DNA of 64,000 bases from Cutibacterium namnetense. GTDB lineage: Bacteria > Actinomycetota > Actinomycetes > Propionibacteriales > Propionibacteriaceae. Position 1 is the first letter of the stretch. Each line of letters begins with the position of its first letter. Where the stretch lies: contig NZ_LWHO01000005.1 of the NCBI RefSeq assembly GCF_001642025.1, positions 1-64,000 on the forward strand, read 5' to 3'. The notes beneath the pieces were generated by a model, which saw nothing but the letters and a program-made list of their open reading frames with translations, made no database searches and was not told the origin of the DNA. The position numbers and the translations under genes are program-made. This document shows, one piece after another, positions 41,420 through 52,134 of this stretch.

Positions 41420-43171
41420 TCAGGCCCAAGGATGCGCCAGCAGCAACTCCGTATTGTGATCGACCGATGTACCGAGCCTACCCACCCTCGTATGGAGGTC
41501 GTTCGCGCCAAACTCTCGGTACAGGCTGGCCAGACCGTCCGGGTCGGTCGTGTCGTAGTCGGCCTGGTACGGGGCATTGGACTCAATAAGCGTGGTGAAG
41601 ATACTCACGGTGCCGTCATGATTGTCGGCAAGCTCGATGATGCGGGCCATCTGGGGGAAGTCGACGTGGGAAGCCGTGTTGATCTCCCACCAGCTGCGAC
41701 GGGCATCGAGAGCATGATGGTGTGCGGTGATGTTGTTCGCATGCACGTGTCCATTGACCCAGGCAATCACGTTCGGGTAGTGCGACAGCAGGGAGACCAA
41801 TTCCGGACCGAGGTGACGGATACCGGTGCCGTCGCCAGGGAGGATAGGGTTGTTCATCGTCATCGAGTCGTGGTGACTGAAAAGGACGAACATCGTGTCG
41901 CTCACGTCGTGATGATGACGCACCCCGAGATCGTCGTAATACACGCTGCTACCGGCGCGTAACACAGATTTAAGCCAGTTCCATTGACGGTCGTCGATAG
42001 AACCATCGGTGTACCCGGCCCGGTTGGTCGAGTCCAGGCTGATACCGGTTACGCCGTTGGCAATCGGGAAGGTGTAATAACCGCGCACGGCATTGAGATC
42101 ATCCTCATGGAATCCATGGCCGTGCGGGCCCGCACCATCGATACCGTCGCGCAAATGAGCCTTGATGAACTCGAAGGGCGTGAAGGGCACCCGACGTTCA
42201 TCCGCAGTAATTTGCCGGGTCAGTGAAGCGGCATCGTTGGACAGGGCTACCGGTCCGTTTCCCTGGGCTGCCTGGAGATAGGCCTTAGTATCTTTCTGGC
42301 TGGCGAAGCCGGTGATCTTGCGATCACTGGTGTACATCGCCTTCAGCAGACCCCAGTCAGAAGGCAAGGTGCCCTGGACTGAATCGTCGTGGTTACCGAA
42401 TACCGCGTACCACGGAAGCTTCACGCCGGCGGAAGACACTGGGGCCATGACGCGACGGAAGTAGCCGTCTACCTGGGGGAAACCGGCGCGCTTATACATG
42501 TCGCTGCGATGCGATTCAGGATTGTAGAACAGCGGGTCCCCGAAGGTTTGCACACTTTCCCAGCGATCGCGTGCGCCGGTATTGGGAACGATCGTGCCAC
42601 CAGACAACAACGTGAGGTACCAGTCGAGTTCGACGTGCTCATGATTATCGGTGTTGTCACCAGTGCTGACAAGAGCGTCAAAAGCTCGGCCAGTAGCCGG
42701 ACCGCCCTGGAGAGAATTGACGCGGCGGACCAAGGAGGCCGTAGCTAGCGGACCCAGCGCTTCCTGCGGGCGGAAGGCCGGGCCAGCCAGCGGATGCATG
42801 AACTCGACCCTCATCGGCGACTGCACGTCGGTCACGTGCAAGTCGGTCACCTGAACGAACGACGCCAAACCATCGCGGCGATCGTCGCGCCCGCTCTTGC
42901 CCTTGGCGAGTTCCTCGCGTACGACAAGCGGGTAGCCGCGCTGCGCCTTAAGCCTGCGGTACCCGCTGCCCGGACCTCGCAACCCCACCTGTTCAAGGGT
43001 GGTGCCGGACGTGGAGTGGAGACGCTTCGACGCGTGGGCCAACGCCGGGGTGGTGCCGGTCACCGCCGCAGCGGCGACCAAGGTCACACCGCCGAGGAAC
43101 GTTCGCCGTCCCAGCCTGTTCTTGGCCGTCTTATCGTCGTTTCTGGTCAACTCGTCTTCGTTCTCTGGCAT
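41420..43171 (-). CDS. Tat-exported metallophosphoesterase, PPA1498 family (TIGR03767)
   Basis: A 583-residue calcineurin-like phosphoesterase. The N terminus has a twin-arginine signal (LGRRTFLGGVTLVAAAAV, cleavage near TTPALA), so a folded, metal-loaded enzyme is exported. Metal-binding motifs are in order: VTDLHVTD, STGDNTDNHEH, FGNHDD, FSHHDS and NGHVHANN. This architecture is the actinobacterial family named after the P. acnes protein PPA1498. GAAAGGTG precedes the ATG. The natural substrate is not known. Confidence 0.9.
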   Translation of the reverse strand: MPENEDELTRNDDKTAKNRLGRRTFLGGVTLVAAAAVTGTTPALAHASKRLHSTSGTTLEQVGLRGPGSGYRRLKAQRGYPLVVREELAKGKSGRDDRRDGLASFVQVTDLHVTDVQSPMRVEFMHPLAGPAFRPQEALGPLATASLVRRVNSLQGGPATGRAFDALVSTGDNTDNHEHVELDWYLTLLSGGTIVPNTGARDRWESVQTFGDPLFYNPESHRSDMYKRAGFPQVDGYFRRVMAPVSSAGVKLPWYAVFGNHDDSVQGTLPSDWGLLKAMYTSDRKITGFASQKDTKAYLQAAQGNGPVALSNDAASLTRQITADERRVPFTPFEFIKAHLRDGIDGAGPHGHGFHEDDLNAVRGYYTFPIANGVTGISLDSTNRAGYTDGSIDDRQWNWLKSVLRAGSSVYYDDLGVRHHHDVSDTMFVLFSHHDSMTMNNPILPGDGTGIRHLGPELVSLLSHYPNVIAWVNGHVHANNITAHHHALDARRSWWEINTASHVDFPQMARIIELADNHDGTVSIFTTLIESNAPYQADYDTTDPDGLASLYREFGANDLHTRVGRLGTSVDHNTELLLAHPWA

Positions 43172-45211: not shown

Positions 45212-45226
45212 CGATAACCGTTCTCA
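45212..45226. promoter_or_regulatory. Zur-like palindrome in the zinc-locus promoter
   Basis: GATAAC-C-GTTCTC forms a near-perfect palindrome resembling the actinobacterial Zur operator (TGAtAAcNgTTaTCA-like, from memory). It abuts and overlaps the -10-like CATTAT/TTATAC at 45225-45232, about 45 bases before the first gene. This is where a zinc-loaded repressor would block transcription. Confidence 0.55.
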
Positions 45227-45270
45227 TTATACAGTTGGCCGGACATTACAGGAAGACAATGGAGGCCACC

Positions 45271-47940
45271 GTGAAACGGTTCGCATCGCTCCTTGCCGCC
45301 CTGCTGACGTTCCTGATGATCAACCCGTCATCGACGAACGCGGCAGCGCCGGATCATGAGCACCTGCACAACGGCCATGTCGACGCCACCCACACCGAGT
45401 GGGATCAGGCGACCGACGGGCCCACCACTCAAGCACTCGGGGATAGCAATGCCACCGACGTTCGCCCCTCGCCGGACCCCGCCAATAGCACCAGCACCGT
45501 GCTCGACCACGGTCACGCCGATGTCTTCCGAGTAGGATCGGCCCCCGATGGCGGCATCGACCTCAAACTCAAAGAAGACGTCACCGGCGATGGGGTGCTC
45601 CACACCCCCGAAAACGTCCTCCTCAAAATCAAAGATTCCGCTCTCACTGATATCCCTGCCAACTTTCCTGGCGCTCCTCAGGGATATGTCCTACCGCTGA
45701 CGCAGAACCCGGATGTGCTCTGGCCAGGTTGGGAGACCTTCGACGTCAAACGCAACGGCTTCGATTCGGTCAACATCACGGTAAGCAACGTCAAGGGCCC
45801 CGGCAAGGTGCACCTGTTCTCCCAAGACTCCTTTGGCGAAGTTAAGCCTCTGCTTGACGGCAACACGACCGAACTACCCGGCACCATCACCGTCGCTCAG
45901 CCCTCCCATGTGCACGCCAACTGGGTGTTTGGCAAGACCGGCATTTACACCATGACCGTCCAGGCCACAGCACACAAGTCCGGCAAGAAGTTCCAGACCA
46001 AACCGCACACCTACACCTGGGTGGTCGGCGATACGACTGCCCTCCCTGAGCCGTGGGGACAGCCAACTCCACCACCGACGCCCACGTCAGCCCCAACAAC
46101 TCCAAGCGTCGCCCCAACTCCGTCGCTTTCCCCCGTGCCCCGGCCGACGCCGAGCACCACCGCACCCAAGGCCTCGGTCACACCGACAGCAACCCCCAAG
46201 CCGGCCCCAACGCAGGAGCAAACCCGGCCCCGGAAGCAGACCCGTAAACCCGTTGTGAAGCCGAGAGCCAGCACAACGCCCTGCGCTAAAAAGCTGGTCC
46301 TCGACCACGGTCACTCCGACGTCTTCCGCGTCGGATCGGCTGCCAAGAATGGCCTCGATCTCAAGATCAAGGAAGACGTGACCGGCGAGGGGGTGCTCCA
46401 TACCCCGGAAAGCGTGCTGCTGGCCGTTAAGGACTCTGCCCTAACGACCATCCCGAAGGGATACCCTGGCGCCCCCAAGGGTTACCTGCTGCCCATGACG
46501 CAGAACCAGAATCTGCTGTGGCCGGGCTGGGAGACCTTCGACGTCAAACGCAACGACTTTAATGAGGTCAAGGTCAACATCCGTACCGTCAAGGGCCCAG
46601 GCAAGGTACACCTGTTCTCGCAGAGCTCCTTCGGTAACGTCCAAGCTCTGCTCGACGGTGGTTCAACCACCCTGCCGGGCACTATCACCGTCAAGCAGCC
46701 GTCCCATGTGCATGCCAACTGGGTGTTCACCCAGCCCGGTCGTTACCAGATGACGGTTGATGCCACCGCCATCCGTAATGGCACGACCGTCAGCACTGGA
46801 GCCCACACCTACACCTGGGTCGTTGGTTCCCAGGCCATCACCGCTGCCAAGAGCTGCCCGACCGGTACCGTCGCCGGCACCCCGGCCCGCGGTAACGCTG
46901 ACAACCCGGCCCGGGGCAAAGGCAGCAGCAGAGGTGGTTCCGACAGAGCCTTCGATGACCTTGGCATGGCCAACAGCCCCCGCAACAGCTCGAACAGACC
47001 GACCGGGGTGACAAGCGCCAGCGGCCCTTCCGTCAAGAAGGAAATCTGCCGCCCGGTGAAGATCGCGAACAAGGTAGCCGCAGCGAAAAAGACCGCTGCT
47101 CAGCCTGCTGGCCGGTCGGCATCCATCGCCACTGAGGGCCACTTCGACTGGGGCGTCCAATTGCAGTCCGGCAAGCTCATCTCAGCCGTTAAAGACGACC
47201 GCTCCGCCCCGGCGAAGTGGGTCGATCCATCGAGCATCGTGATGGCTGTTGGCGATAAAGCCAATACCACCGCCCCTGCCGGCATGGACTTCATTGCCAA
47301 GGGCGGCACCAAGGTATGGCTCATCGGTGCCACCCAGGTAGCCGGCGTGCCGTGGCTAGGCGTCAATACAATGCACGAATCCATCATCAACGGAACCACC
47401 GGCCCGGTTCACATGCACCTGGACAAGGTCAGTGGCCCTGGCAAGCTAGCCGTGTTTATGTCCGGCACCTTCGGTGGCGGCGTGGGACAGCGAGTTTTCG
47501 ATAACGTCGGCGGACCCACCAGTTACACCATCCCGGCGAACACCCACGCCCATCCGAACTGGGTGTTCACCGCCCCCGGACACTACGCCGTGACTGTCAC
47601 TCAGTCGGCCACAACCAAGGACGGCAAGAAGGTCAGCGCCACTGGCACCCTCCACTTCGCGGTAGGCATTGATGCCGCGTCGGTGGCGGCTTCCCTGGGC
47701 AAGGTGCCGGCCGCGGCCGGCACCGACGGGAATACCGATCCGGGCTACACCATCGTGGGCCGTACCCCTGATGGCAAGCCGTGTGATCTCAAAGCGACCG
47801 GCCTGCCAGGCTCCGGCGAAAACGGCGAGTCCGGTGACACCGGTATCGCCTCCCAGACCAACCAGGGTCTGGTGGTCGGAGCCTTCGCGGTTCTTGGCTT
47901 AGCCGGCGCTCTCCTCGTGGCGAGGAGACGACGCGGGTGA
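45271..47940 (+). CDS. Wall-spanning surface protein with three anchored-repeat domains
   Basis: About 889 residues, matching the 'ABC transporter-associated repeat protein' type (TIGR03773 with TIGR03769 repeats). After a Sec signal (MKRFASLLAAL to STNA), repeat domains lie near residues 77-253, 343-520 and 623-800. Each begins with His-rich GHxD and ends with H-x-H-x-N-W-V-F then a beta strand before VVG/AVG. A Pro/Thr/Lys linker (254-342) and a Lys/Arg-rich linker separate them. LPGSG and a C-terminal hydrophobic helix with RRRRG anchor it. The conserved His suggest metal binding (inference). The GTG at 45271 has GGAGG at good spacing; ATG at 45259 is possible. GTGA overlap with the next gene. 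Confidence 0.85.
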   Translation: MKRFASLLAALLTFLMINPSSTNAAAPDHEHLHNGHVDATHTEWDQATDGPTTQALGDSNATDVRPSPDPANSTSTVLDHGHADVFRVGSAPDGGIDLKLKEDVTGDGVLHTPENVLLKIKDSALTDIPANFPGAPQGYVLPLTQNPDVLWPGWETFDVKRNGFDSVNITVSNVKGPGKVHLFSQDSFGEVKPLLDGNTTELPGTITVAQPSHVHANWVFGKTGIYTMTVQATAHKSGKKFQTKPHTYTWVVGDTTALPEPWGQPTPPPTPTSAPTTPSVAPTPSLSPVPRPTPSTTAPKASVTPTATPKPAPTQEQTRPRKQTRKPVVKPRASTTPCAKKLVLDHGHSDVFRVGSAAKNGLDLKIKEDVTGEGVLHTPESVLLAVKDSALTTIPKGYPGAPKGYLLPMTQNQNLLWPGWETFDVKRNDFNEVKVNIRTVKGPGKVHLFSQSSFGNVQALLDGGSTTLPGTITVKQPSHVHANWVFTQPGRYQMTVDATAIRNGTTVSTGAHTYTWVVGSQAITAAKSCPTGTVAGTPARGNADNPARGKGSSRGGSDRAFDDLGMANSPRNSSNRPTGVTSASGPSVKKEICRPVKIANKVAAAKKTAAQPAGRSASIATEGHFDWGVQLQSGKLISAVKDDRSAPAKWVDPSSIVMAVGDKANTTAPAGMDFIAKGGTKVWLIGATQVAGVPWLGVNTMHESIINGTTGPVHMHLDKVSGPGKLAVFMSGTFGGGVGQRVFDNVGGPTSYTIPANTHAHPNWVFTAPGHYAVTVTQSATTKDGKKVSATGTLHFAVGIDAASVAASLGKVPAAAGTDGNTDPGYTIVGRTPDGKPCDLKATGLPGSGENGESGDTGIASQTNQGLVVGAFAVLGLAGALLVARRRRG

Positions 47941-49460
47941 AAAAACGCCTGTTATGCGTCGTGGCCGCACTGAGTCTGCTGGCTGGGTGCGGCCACGTTC
48001 CTGCTTCCCGTGACAGGCTTTCCGTGGTGACGACTACGCCTATCCTCGCCGATTTGACCCGTCAGGTCGCCGGTGATCGTGCCACCGTCACCTCCATGGT
48101 GCCTTCCGGGGCAGACCCCCACACTTATGAGCCGTCGCTGCGTGACGTCCGGACCGTCGTGTATTCGAAGGTCGCGCTGTCGAACTACCTCATGCTCGAG
48201 CCTCATTCGGTCATCAAGACCATCGACGCTTCCCTACCCGCTGGGTCCATCAATGTCTCCCTAGCCGAGGAGGCCCAAAAGTACGGCGCACAGGTGATCC
48301 CGCTGGTTGAAAATGCCAACCTGGACACCGTGTGGCTAGGGCTGCGCATCATTGGCAAGGGTGCCGCACGGGGAGCCGACCGTTCCTCCTCGGTCCACCT
48401 TCAGCTGAAGTCGGTTGAAGGACCAGGGGACCTCACCGCCTATATCACTGGAACCTTTGGTCGACCTCAGATCTACTACTCGACGACTGACGGCATCGAC
48501 GAGCGTGACGACGTAGAGCTTCCTACCGACGCCCACACCCACATGTCGTGGGCCTTCAGCAAACCTGGGGTGTACAAAGCGGTGTTCGCGGCCACCTTAT
48601 CGACTCCCAAGGGCAACACGTCGATTGGCACGCAAACCCTGACGATCGCCGTCGGGGCCGATCCGCGAACTAACCCTGAACTCGCCGATCGAACTGTTGT
48701 CGACAAGGGACATGCAGACTTCTGCGCCGACATTGACGAGGCAACGATGACCATCCTGTCCGACCCGACCGGCGGCGGCGTACGCACCCAGAAGCGTCTG
48801 AACCCCGACAAGTCAGTCGTGTGGGTACCCCCGAAAGCCCTCACCGAGATACCGCCGTCACCGGCTTTCCGTTTTCTGGGGCATCCTGGGTCCTCAATCC
48901 ACCAGCTACCTCAGGCTGTTCTCGGCGTCCACGTTCACGGTGAGATCGACCCCCACCTGTGGATGAGCATCAAGAACACCAAGGCCTATGTGCAGGTCAT
49001 CCGTGACTCCCTTATAAAGGCTGATCCTCAAGGGGCGCAGACCTATCGCGAGAACACTACAAAATACCTGGCCAGGCTCGAAGAGACTTCGCACTACGTC
49101 GACCGCAAGATCGCAAGTATTCCGAGGGGACGGCGCCAGCTCATTACCAGTCATGACGCCTACGGTTACCTTGCTCAGGCTCACGGTATGCACATCGCTG
49201 GGTTCGTCACTGCCAACCCTGGCGTGGAACCGTCCATGGCCCAGCGACGCAAACTCAACCAGACCATCGCTGACCTCAAGGTGCCGGCGGTGTTTCTGGA
49301 GCCCAACGTGCTGCGTGGTTCCTCAGTACTAGCCGCGATCGCCGCAGACAACGGTGTCAAGGTGTGCCCCATCTATGGCGACACCTTCGACGACCACGTC
49401 ACCAACTACATCGACCTCATGAGATTCGACGCCGACTCCCTAGCCAAGTGCTTGGGATGA
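47937..49460 (+). CDS. Zinc/manganese-type ABC substrate-binding lipoprotein with an inserted repeat domain
   Basis: A 507-residue cluster A-I metal-binding protein (TIGR03772 type). The lipobox is LLAGC near residue 19. The N-lobe (about 20-118) ends before an insertion of about 210 residues; the ZnuA fold resumes near 329 with GEIDPHLWMS, then SHDAYGYLAQ and YGDTFDDH. Together with ADPHTYEPS near 62, these supply the usual three His and an Asp. The insertion sits where other ZnuA proteins have their His-rich loop and is built from surface-repeat halves in swapped order. It overlaps the upstream gene by GTGA. Zinc is favoured over manganese because of the promoter site. Confidence 0.88.
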   Translation: MKKRLLCVVAALSLLAGCGHVPASRDRLSVVTTTPILADLTRQVAGDRATVTSMVPSGADPHTYEPSLRDVRTVVYSKVALSNYLMLEPHSVIKTIDASLPAGSINVSLAEEAQKYGAQVIPLVENANLDTVWLGLRIIGKGAARGADRSSSVHLQLKSVEGPGDLTAYITGTFGRPQIYYSTTDGIDERDDVELPTDAHTHMSWAFSKPGVYKAVFAATLSTPKGNTSIGTQTLTIAVGADPRTNPELADRTVVDKGHADFCADIDEATMTILSDPTGGGVRTQKRLNPDKSVVWVPPKALTEIPPSPAFRFLGHPGSSIHQLPQAVLGVHVHGEIDPHLWMSIKNTKAYVQVIRDSLIKADPQGAQTYRENTTKYLARLEETSHYVDRKIASIPRGRRQLITSHDAYGYLAQAHGMHIAGFVTANPGVEPSMAQRRKLNQTIADLKVPAVFLEPNVLRGSSVLAAIAADNGVKVCPIYGDTFDDHVTNYIDLMRFDADSLAKCLG

Positions 49461-49480
49461 GGCCCACTGTGGAGGTACCC

Positions 49481-50509
49481 ATGATCAACCGTCCGCTGGC
49501 AGGCGTGTCTGCCATGCTCATTGCGCTCACCACTAGCTTCGCCTTGGTCCAGCCGGCCCAGGCGTCCCCCACTCCTGCGCCCGACCCAGCCCTCAAGCAG
49601 ACCGTCACTGATAATGAGAAGGTGGCGAAAGGCCCGGCTGAGATCAAGCGCGGCCACGTCGACGTCGGCCCCCGCATCGTTGCCGGAAGATTCTCCCTGA
49701 TGGCCCGTGATGACACTGCAAACCCGCCAGTCTGGCGCAGCACTGACGAAGCTGTGCTGCGCGTCGCTGACGCTTCGCGCGTCGACGTGCCCAACGACGA
49801 CAGCTATTCCTTCTTGGGCACTGTGCGCGGGAAGAAGGCTTACGTCATTCCCCAGACCCAAGATCAGAAGGTCGTGTGGCTGGGCTGGAATACCCAGGCC
49901 CCTGAGATCGTCCAAAATTTCCGACGCGGAGCCGATCTCGTCTTCACGGGGCATGAGGGCCCAGGACAAGCCCACATGTTCATTGAGAACGGTTTTGACT
50001 CCCCGATGCCGCTGTACGACTCCACCAAGTCCGGCGAGCAGCTAGTTCACATGGAGGCCAACACTCATGTCCACGCTAACTGGGTGTTCTCTGATCCCGG
50101 TGCGCAGACCATCTCCGTCGATGTTCGCGGTACCGATGGCAAAGGGACTAAGCACTCTTACTCGACGAAGTTGAGGTTCGTTGTCGGCGACAAGGGATCC
50201 GCGAACGAAGCCCGCGCCATAGGGTCTTCACCATCAGCCGCTACATCTGTTGCTCCACCAGCTTCGTCGAGGGCCGCGGCCACTGAGATATCCTCCCCAG
50301 CTTCAACCGCGACTGCGAATTCCTCCGACGACTCCGACGATGACACCCCATGGGGACCTGCAATCGTTGCCGGAGTCGTCATCATTGGCATTATCGTCAC
50401 CGCTTTGGTGGGACGCTCCAGGTCAAAGAAAATGCGCGACGAAGTATGGAATGAGGAAGGCACCGGCGCAAGCGAAACCAACAAGGATTCCGGAGACGAG
50501 CCCAGATGA
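49481..50509 (+). CDS. Membrane-anchored surface protein with one anchored-repeat domain
   Basis: About 342 residues. A Sec signal ends near QPAQA-SP (residue 27). One repeat domain follows (about 50-235), with GHVDVG at its start, VVWLGWNT in the middle and THVHANWVF near its end. A Ser/Ala/Thr linker, a hydrophobic helix near 290-310 and a basic cytoplasmic tail complete it. GGAGGT precedes the ATG at 49481; the longer frame runs back into the previous gene. Its stop overlaps the ATPase start (ATGA). Probably a membrane-proximal partner of the larger wall protein. Confidence 0.83.
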   Translation: MINRPLAGVSAMLIALTTSFALVQPAQASPTPAPDPALKQTVTDNEKVAKGPAEIKRGHVDVGPRIVAGRFSLMARDDTANPPVWRSTDEAVLRVADASRVDVPNDDSYSFLGTVRGKKAYVIPQTQDQKVVWLGWNTQAPEIVQNFRRGADLVFTGHEGPGQAHMFIENGFDSPMPLYDSTKSGEQLVHMEANTHVHANWVFSDPGAQTISVDVRGTDGKGTKHSYSTKLRFVVGDKGSANEARAIGSSPSAATSVAPPASSRAAATEISSPASTATANSSDDSDDDTPWGPAIVAGVVIIGIIVTALVGRSRSKKMRDEVWNEEGTGASETNKDSGDEPR

Positions 50510-51264
50510 ATGACCTCGGATCCATCAAGATCTCTGACGTAGCCGTCAACTTTGGCGGGCTGCAGGTGCTCCACGATGTCAATATGTCGGCCGCCAAGGG
50601 CGACCTGCTAGCTCTACTCGGCCCCAACGGCGCTGGCAAGACCACTATCCTGCGCACCATGCTCGGCCTGGTGAAGCCAGCCAAGGGCACTGTTGAGGTC
50701 GCTGGCGCGTCTCCTGGTAAGGGATGGCGCCACATTGGCTACGTTCCGCAGCGCCACGAGTTTGCGTGGGATTTTCCGATCAGCGTCGCTGACGTCGTCA
50801 TGAGCGGACGTACTCGCCACATCGGGTGGCTTCGTCGCCCTAGCAAGGACGACCACATCGCAGTGCGTGACGCCCTAAGAACTGCTGGAATGGCTGAGCT
50901 GGCTAACCGTACTGTTGGGGAATTATCGGGGGGTCAGCGTCAGCGCGTGCTCATCGCTCGCGCCCTGGCCACCCGTCCGTCGGTGCTACTCCTTGACGAG
51001 CCTTTCACCGGCGTCGATATGCCCACCCAGGAGCAGCTCACCGAGCTATTCATCAAGTTGTCGGAGGCTGGGACGACCCTCGTCATGACGACCCATGACC
51101 TGGCCCAGGCGATGGCCACGGCCGACCGGGTGTGCCTAGTTAACCGGACTGTCATCGCTGACTCGACCCCCCAACAGCTGCGCGACCCGGCCATGTGGAT
51201 GCAGGCCTTCGGGGTCTCCGGCTCGTCGCCCCTGTTGAGGATCGTCGGCGCAAACGCCGCCTGA
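50506..51264 (+). CDS. Metal ABC transporter ATP-binding protein (anchored-repeat type)
   Basis: A 252-residue ZnuC-like ATPase. Walker A is GPNGAGKTT, Q-loop GYVPQRHEFAWDFP, signature LSGGQRQRVLIARAL, Walker B VLLLDEPFTGVD and H-loop TTHDLAQAM. It starts inside the stop of the repeat protein gene and is followed 12 bases later by the permease. It belongs to the TIGR03771-type set. Confidence 0.93.
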   Translation: MNDLGSIKISDVAVNFGGLQVLHDVNMSAAKGDLLALLGPNGAGKTTILRTMLGLVKPAKGTVEVAGASPGKGWRHIGYVPQRHEFAWDFPISVADVVMSGRTRHIGWLRRPSKDDHIAVRDALRTAGMAELANRTVGELSGGQRQRVLIARALATRPSVLLLDEPFTGVDMPTQEQLTELFIKLSEAGTTLVMTTHDLAQAMATADRVCLVNRTVIADSTPQQLRDPAMWMQAFGVSGSSPLLRIVGANAA

Positions 51265-51276
51265 ACGAAGGTAATC

Positions 51277-52134
51277 ATGCTTTCCCCTCTCGACTTCTTA
51301 TCTGACCTCACCAATCCCCTGCTGAGCTTCCTGCCAAAGGCGCTACTCGTCGCCGTGGTGTGCTCAGTAGTTGCCGGGGTCATTGGTTCGCACGTCGTCC
51401 TGCGCGGGATGGCATTCATCGGTGACGCCGTCGCCCACTCGGTGTTTCCCGGGTTGGCGGTGGCCTTCCTCATGCAAGGGTCGCTGCTGCTGGGCGGGTC
51501 CATCGCCGGGTTGACCACCGCGATCCTCGTGGCGATCGTTTCGCAGAATCGGCGCCTCAAAGAGGACTCGGTCATCGGCATCCTCTTCGCCGGGGCCTTC
51601 GCGCTGGGCATTCTCATCATCTCGCGGGCACCGGGGTATTCGGGGTCGCTGCAACAGTTCCTCTTCGGGTCGATCACCGGCATCACCAACGACGACATCG
51701 CCATCGTGTGTGTCACCGGGGCCCTAGTCCTTGCACTGGAACGGGCCGTCCACAAAGAGTTTGTTGCCGTCGGGCTCGACCGTGAGACAGCTAGGGCCTC
51801 AAACCTGCCGGTGTTCGCCCTGGACCTGCTGCTCTACGTCCTGGTGACGATGACTGTCGTCATCTCGGTGCAGGTCATCGGCAACGTCCTGGTACTGGCT
51901 CTGCTGGTGACGCCGGCTGCCACCGTCCGGCTACTCACCGACCGGCTAGGGCGGATGATGGTCCTGGCGCCAGTCATCGGTGGGCTGAGCGCCCTGGTGG
52001 GCCTGTACCTGTCGTGGTCGATCGATCTTCCGGCCGGTGGGACGATCGTCCTCGTGGCAACCACGGTGTTCCTAGCGTGCTGGCTGGTCGCCCCGCGCGG
52101 GTTGCTGGGGGCAGCGCGACGTCGGGCGGCATAG
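51277..52134 (+). CDS. Metal ABC transporter permease (anchored-repeat type)
   Basis: A 285-residue ABC-3 family permease with about eight hydrophobic helices. Family markers are HVVLRGMAFIGDAVAHSVFPG near residue 45 and VIGNVLVLALLVTPAATVRLL near 205. With the ATPase and the lipoprotein it makes a complete ZnuABC-like importer. It is the last gene of the operon (TIGR03770-type set). Confidence 0.92.
   Translation: MLSPLDFLSDLTNPLLSFLPKALLVAVVCSVVAGVIGSHVVLRGMAFIGDAVAHSVFPGLAVAFLMQGSLLLGGSIAGLTTAILVAIVSQNRRLKEDSVIGILFAGAFALGILIISRAPGYSGSLQQFLFGSITGITNDDIAIVCVTGALVLALERAVHKEFVAVGLDRETARASNLPVFALDLLLYVLVTMTVVISVQVIGNVLVLALLVTPAATVRLLTDRLGRMMVLAPVIGGLSALVGLYLSWSIDLPAGGTIVLVATTVFLACWLVAPRGLLGAARRRAA

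Follow-up and report, generated by a model that had tools for sequence, protein, structure and literature searches.

A circularly permuted choice-of-anchor-M domain is nested in the ZnuA-like receptor of an anchored-repeat ABC transporter of Cutibacterium namnetense

The stretch of DNA that was analysed (the window) comprises the first 64,000 nucleotides of contig NZ_LWHO01000005.1 of Cutibacterium namnetense. The protein encoded at 47937-49460 matches the family model TIGR03772 over its whole length (model positions 1-486; 846.9 bits, cut-off 350.45). It is the substrate-binding lipoprotein, here called the receptor, of an anchored-repeat (ZnuAECB-like) ATP-binding cassette (ABC) transporter, and is encoded in the usual operon. 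Its ZnuA-like fold is interrupted by an insert of about 200 residues, which was confirmed to be a choice-of-anchor-M domain that is complete and circularly permuted. The receptor gene consists of the following parts:

47937-49460, + strand: open reading frame (ORF) of the receptor lipoprotein, 507 amino acids, GTG start
47937..47990, + strand: signal peptide and lipobox LLAGC (Cys18), from the translation, the lipobox read by eye
48015..48287, + strand: N-terminal lobe of the ZnuA-like host (residues 27-117) with ligand His62, from Pfam, fold match and conservation
48294..48656, + strand: insert segment 1 (residues 120-240), corresponding to the second domain half and containing HTH (His200, His202)
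48657..48698, + strand: poorly conserved linker (about 14 residues) that connects the C end of the normal-order domain to its N end
48699..48911, + strand: insert segment 2 (residues 255-325), corresponding to the first domain half and containing GHxD (His259, Asp261)
48912..48947, + strand: stretch leading from the insert back into the host, AVLGVHVHGEID, with invariant His332 and His334, from conservation, the loop position from alignment
48948..49457, + strand: C-terminal part of the ZnuA-like host with ligands His340, His406 and Asp482

The order of the two insert segments was established by profile searches. In a whole-genome search the choice_anch_M model NF038134 matched 48294-48653 with its positions 69-184 (72 bits), followed by 48696-48917 with its positions 1-73 (25.6 bits, E 1.4e-5), so that the second half of the domain stands first. 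To avoid circularity, receptors were kept out of an independent profile, which was built from 350 normal-order domains. This profile matched the insert with positions 63-181 (81 bits) and then 2-72 (32.9 bits, E 2.6e-10). The insert thus gave two partial, swapped matches and no full-length match in normal order. When its halves were rejoined in normal order, a single match covering positions 2-181 of 181 was obtained with 121.2 bits. The best score among 346 scored half-shuffles was 5.2 bits, and the rejoined match is far beyond chance.

The same arrangement was found throughout the homologous receptors, all of them identified through their similarity to the receptor of the window. The independent profile detected the swapped order in 82 out of 85; the remaining three were scored as NORMAL or N only by the classifier, and inspection showed that they also carry the C-terminal half before the N-terminal half, with an overlong C-half match running into the preceding host sequence. 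For the 82 homologues the median score was 115.6 bits when rejoined versus 68.8 bits as encoded, which rules out a normal-order alignment of the insert. The N-half match ends at profile position 72 in all 82, therefore the domain was cut at one place, and the linker between the halves has a median length of 15 residues (range 10-77). No permuted domain was found outside the receptors among the 5829 ORFs of the loci, the two entries flagged there being the window receptor itself. The 85 loci come from at least nine orders in two classes, Actinomycetes and Thermoleophilia, and since all show the same insert, an artefact of assembly or gene model was ruled out.

Structure models lead to the same conclusion. 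An AlphaFold2 model of the receptor, based on 54 aligned receptors, had a mean predicted local distance difference test score (pLDDT) of 85.7; most blocks of the insert scored 76-98, and the entry block was weak (55). The normal-order domain was modelled from the third repeat of the wall protein encoded upstream (window 47119-47673; 117 aligned domains), with a pLDDT of 96.7. The two were compared by secondary structure, that is by strand order, in place of a true coordinate superposition. A scan of rotations gave the best score (222.5) for a start in the linker, at model residue 227-231, compared with 126.5 without rotation and a mean of 152. In the rejoined alignment 154 of 179 residues share the same secondary-structure state and 92 of 105 strand positions are shared, with 46 identical residues. 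The strands correspond one-to-one, segment 1 to the normal strands at 78-182 and segment 2 to those at 2-69, and the cut falls in a loop of eight residues between the normal strands 65-69 and 78-83. In these models, the strand orders of the receptor insert and wall repeat 3 match only after rotation. A pair of unrelated subdomains is ruled out by the one confidently modelled sandwich and the strand correspondence. A Foldseek search for solved relatives of the normal domain gave no match below E 0.001, the best being VIA (Z 6.4) with generic beta-sandwich likeness only, and there is therefore no solved template for its putative metal site.

The host is a regular member of the ZnuA type. Pfam model PF01297 spans residues 30-505 with 210.7 bits, and comparison of the receptor model with solved ZnuA-type receptors gave Z-scores of about 26-30, the best for holo AztC (5w57; Z 30.4, root-mean-square deviation 3.2, 275 residues). 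Besides the fold, the four metal ligands of ZnuA and cluster A-I proteins are present (His62, His340, His406 and Asp482), their positions being taken from alignment. A helix of the host runs to about residue 116, the inserted domain occupies residues ~120-324 and the host resumes at ~325-329. A preliminary description, made from the window sequence, had placed the split of the fold near residue 118 and its resumption near 329, and had read the insert as the second half of the surface repeat followed by the first, by circular permutation, at the site of the His-rich loop of other ZnuA proteins. These proposals are borne out, and neither a direct alignment in normal order nor two unrelated subdomains, the observations named there as incompatible with them, was encountered. 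In the alignment with ordinary ZnuA proteins from a phylum search, the insert takes the position of their His-rich loop, which many of them possess and which contains up to 25 histidines. The Z-loop of AztC (AztC residues 222-229) was ruled out as the insertion site, because the flexible His-rich loop that the insert occupies comes before it in the sequence. Judged from the alignment, the exit of the insert with His332 and His334 is a probable remnant of that loop, adjoining ligand His340. The third cleft ligand is a histidine, and manganese receptors in the alignment have a glutamate there. A histidine in place of the glutamate points to zinc in this family. The ligand set of the receptor is thus apparently of the zinc type and points to zinc as its predicted substrate.

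Conservation was measured among 54 non-redundant receptors. Invariant in all of them are His200 and His202 (HxH) and His259 and Asp261 (HxD) of the insert, the four cleft ligands, and the loop histidines His332 and His334. Of the stretches measured, conservation is highest in the 12 residues where the insert gives way to the host (pairwise identity 0.94), followed by the two insert halves (0.61 and 0.54) and the linker (0.41), which has no invariant column. The complete HxD/HxH set (H/D/H/H) is also present in 104 of 117 normal-order domains, and this putative zinc motif appears to be kept in both normal and permuted forms. About 10 of the 117 normal-order domains, in wall proteins of the related loci, do not have HxD/HxH, most of them with an arginine for the first histidine of HxH. 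By their sequences, these may be structural copies that do not carry metal.

The receptor gene lies in an operon with the following genes and a site upstream of them:

45212..45226, + strand: candidate operator upstream of the operon, the imperfect palindrome CGATAACCGTTCTCA
45261..47940, + strand: wall protein TIGR03773 with three normal-order choice-of-anchor-M domains, at 45499-46026, 46297-46824 and 47128-47664
49478..50509, + strand: ZnuE-like membrane protein with one normal-order domain, at 49640-50185
50506..51264, + strand: ABC ATPase TIGR03771, from the NCBIfam profile
51277..52134, + strand: ABC permease TIGR03770, from the NCBIfam profile

The receptor's GTG start and the stop codon of the wall-protein gene share bases (GTGA), and the wall protein has a hydrophobic and charged C-terminal tail. 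The membrane protein is called ZnuE-like from its position and its domain correspondence with dip0439 of C. diphtheriae (PMC6711530, PMC12445094). Permease, ATPase and wall protein are the operon partners that characterise TIGR03772. The closest related loci are those of Cutibacterium species (87-91% identity). The palindrome CGATAACCGTTCTCA is kept in four Cutibacterium relatives, where its flanks are variable, and is present as a single copy in the genome (no other at up to three mismatches). It is a candidate operator of a metal repressor; that it is a Zur site is a guess. A Streptomyces-type Zur box was looked for near the operon and not found, nor does the palindrome match one. A TIGR03767 metallophosphoesterase with a twin-arginine translocation (Tat)-type signal is encoded near the operon (41420-43171, - strand), and is close by in only 5 of the 85 receptor loci. 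A further surface protein of the same genome carries two choice-of-anchor-M domains (locus L120, 228-1805, - strand, contig C16); its gene lies downstream of rpoC, and the protein ends in a bare LPHTG motif with no membrane segment. The znu cluster of C. diphtheriae is likewise located among rpoB/rpoC genes.

Normal-order domains are encoded close to the receptor gene at every one of the 85 loci, the ATPase at 82 and the permease at 81. In a FastTree tree of about 180 columns, with long branches, the permuted inserts (from 20 receptors) cluster together, apart from the normal domains (n = 61), with a support of 98. The simplest reading is a single permutation-and-insertion event before the family spread through Actinomycetes and Thermoleophilia. 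A possible route is a tandem pair of domains that lost its outer halves, because wall proteins carry tandem domains and because a stretch resembling the strand at the cut occurs at either end of the insert (VIPLVE and SIHQLPQ versus YVLPLTQ); this resemblance was seen by eye only and is not relied on. The permutation may serve to accommodate a beta-sandwich within a host loop, as it places the new termini in a single eight-residue loop between two strands.

The family itself is known. Its representative in C. diphtheriae, ZnuA/TroA (DIP0438), has the same operon partners (TIGR03770, TIGR03771 and TIGR03773) as the window receptor and does not differ from it structurally, the permuted insert being a family trait. 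The orthologous cluster of C. diphtheriae is repressed by zinc and Zur (PMC6711530). ZnuE, ZnuF and ZnuG bind zinc, and the HxD/HxH histidines matter for the function of ZnuE and ZnuG; in ZnuA the motif was reported in 2025 to be in 'reverse orientation', with no structural explanation (PMC12445094). The insert resembles the NF038134/TIGR03769 repeat of ZnuE, ZnuF, ZnuG and CmrA by profile, by its strand order once rotated and by HxD/HxH, but differs in that it consists of C-half, linker and N-half and is nested in another fold. The permutation was not described in the literature searched, a search that left most subscription papers and the TIGRFAM notes outside. The apparent novelty lies in recognising this 'reverse order' as a full circular permutation of the domain, located at the His-rich loop and shared by the whole family. 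The note to the TIGR03769 model reportedly suggests a relay of substrate from wall protein to receptor.

Outside the family, the nearest curated relatives of receptor and permease belong to the AztABCD system (AztC, 178.4 bits, below its curated cut-off of 350 bits, and AztB, 211 bits), and AztA (192 bits) is among those of the ATPase. In contrast to AztC, the window receptor has a permuted beta-sandwich of 200 residues at the position of the His-rich loop, and the role of donor would here fall to wall and membrane proteins that carry the domain found in the insert. No AztD beta-propeller was seen among the operon genes examined, which belong to other families, although no search aimed at AztD was made. 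AdcA of streptococci, a structural match to the window receptor, is a ZinT domain fused to ZnuA and represents another ZnuA-type receptor supplied by an additional zinc domain. Streptococcal Pht proteins with AdcAII are similar in being surface zinc proteins that feed such a receptor (PMC12445094). Both differ from the present case in having other domains, either separate or fused at an end, whereas here the domain is nested in a loop. Zinc passes directly from AztD to AztC, a transfer for which the flexible D-loop of AztC and the His residues in it are essential (PMC7463823). We presume the D-loop to be the His-rich loop that aligns with the insert site.

We consider it probable, with considerable room for doubt, that the nested domain, a permuted choice-of-anchor-M sandwich, replaces the His-rich loop of a zinc receptor as a module that accepts zinc and provides docking. 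The role as acceptor is suggested because the D-loop of AztC mediates transfer from AztD and a domain like that of the surface proteins stands here at that position. The wall and ZnuE-type domains would take up zinc, which would then move to the like site on the nested domain (His200, His202, His259 and Asp261). From there His332 and His334 of the loop could carry it on to the cleft site (His62, His340, His406 and Asp482), and the cleft zinc would pass to the permease. The permutation would put the ends of the domain in one strand-to-strand loop and thereby suit it for insertion into a host loop. A wider speculation is that zinc is relayed along the surface by one type of domain and that the relay ends at the receptor: normal-order copies on the wall protein and the ZnuE-like membrane protein would hand zinc to the permuted copy at the mouth of the receptor's metal site, and permutation would have let the relay domain replace the His-rich loop. 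We would put this at somewhat under even chances. The preliminary description had also proposed that the permuted insert would let the receptor pair with wall proteins carrying the normal repeat. The permutation itself says nothing on pairing, as the order of the halves alone creates no binding partner.

Several observations speak against the acceptor and docking role. HxD/HxH is unproven as a zinc site, and a His-to-Ala mutant of ZnuE was still zinc-responsive; deletion of znuA alone had a weak effect on growth; and ZnuF and ZnuG seemed inhibitory, not helpful, when the transporter was missing (PMC12445094). Furthermore, zinc binding and zinc transfer by the nested domain, and its contact with wall proteins, are steps that we infer.

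Among the other explanations, the swapped halves could be a pair of inserts with no relation to each other, or what is left of two adjacent repeats, with only the appearance of a permuted domain. A tandem pair without its outer halves is indeed a plausible historical route, and the by-eye likeness of both insert ends to the cut strand fits it, but such an origin is compatible with a present-day permuted domain and is not its rival. The halves are moreover complementary (2-72 and 63/76-181 of 181) and rejoin to one full-length match, the model shows one confident sandwich with one-to-one strands, and every homologue examined is permuted, which makes this explanation highly improbable. A functional alternative is that the nested domain is an enlarged lid of the cleft or a recognition element for the permease, which tunes the on- and off-rates of zinc and receives none from the wall. 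It is in keeping with the insertion at a loop flanking the metal site, and another loop near the metal site alters zinc kinetics in AztC (PMC7463823), but it leaves unexplained why a lid should copy the co-encoded wall domain with HxD/HxH kept; we regard it as unlikely. Slightly less likely still is that the domain only docks, binding the wall repeats like-to-like and holding the receptor near the wall with no part in zinc handling. The occurrence of the same domain in neighbouring surface proteins at 85 of 85 loci would agree with this, but docking alone does not require the invariant HxD/HxH of the nested domain, and the several domains of the wall protein are joined by long linkers and have no known pairing.

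The permutation explains the previously unexplained 'reverse order' motif in ZnuA of C. diphtheriae, and the domain libraries (TIGR03769, NF038134) see the domain only as fragments in the whole TIGR03772 family. With wall proteins and receptor sharing one putative zinc domain, the vague idea of a relay that brings zinc through the thick Gram-positive wall to a receptor at the membrane becomes a testable path with named residues.

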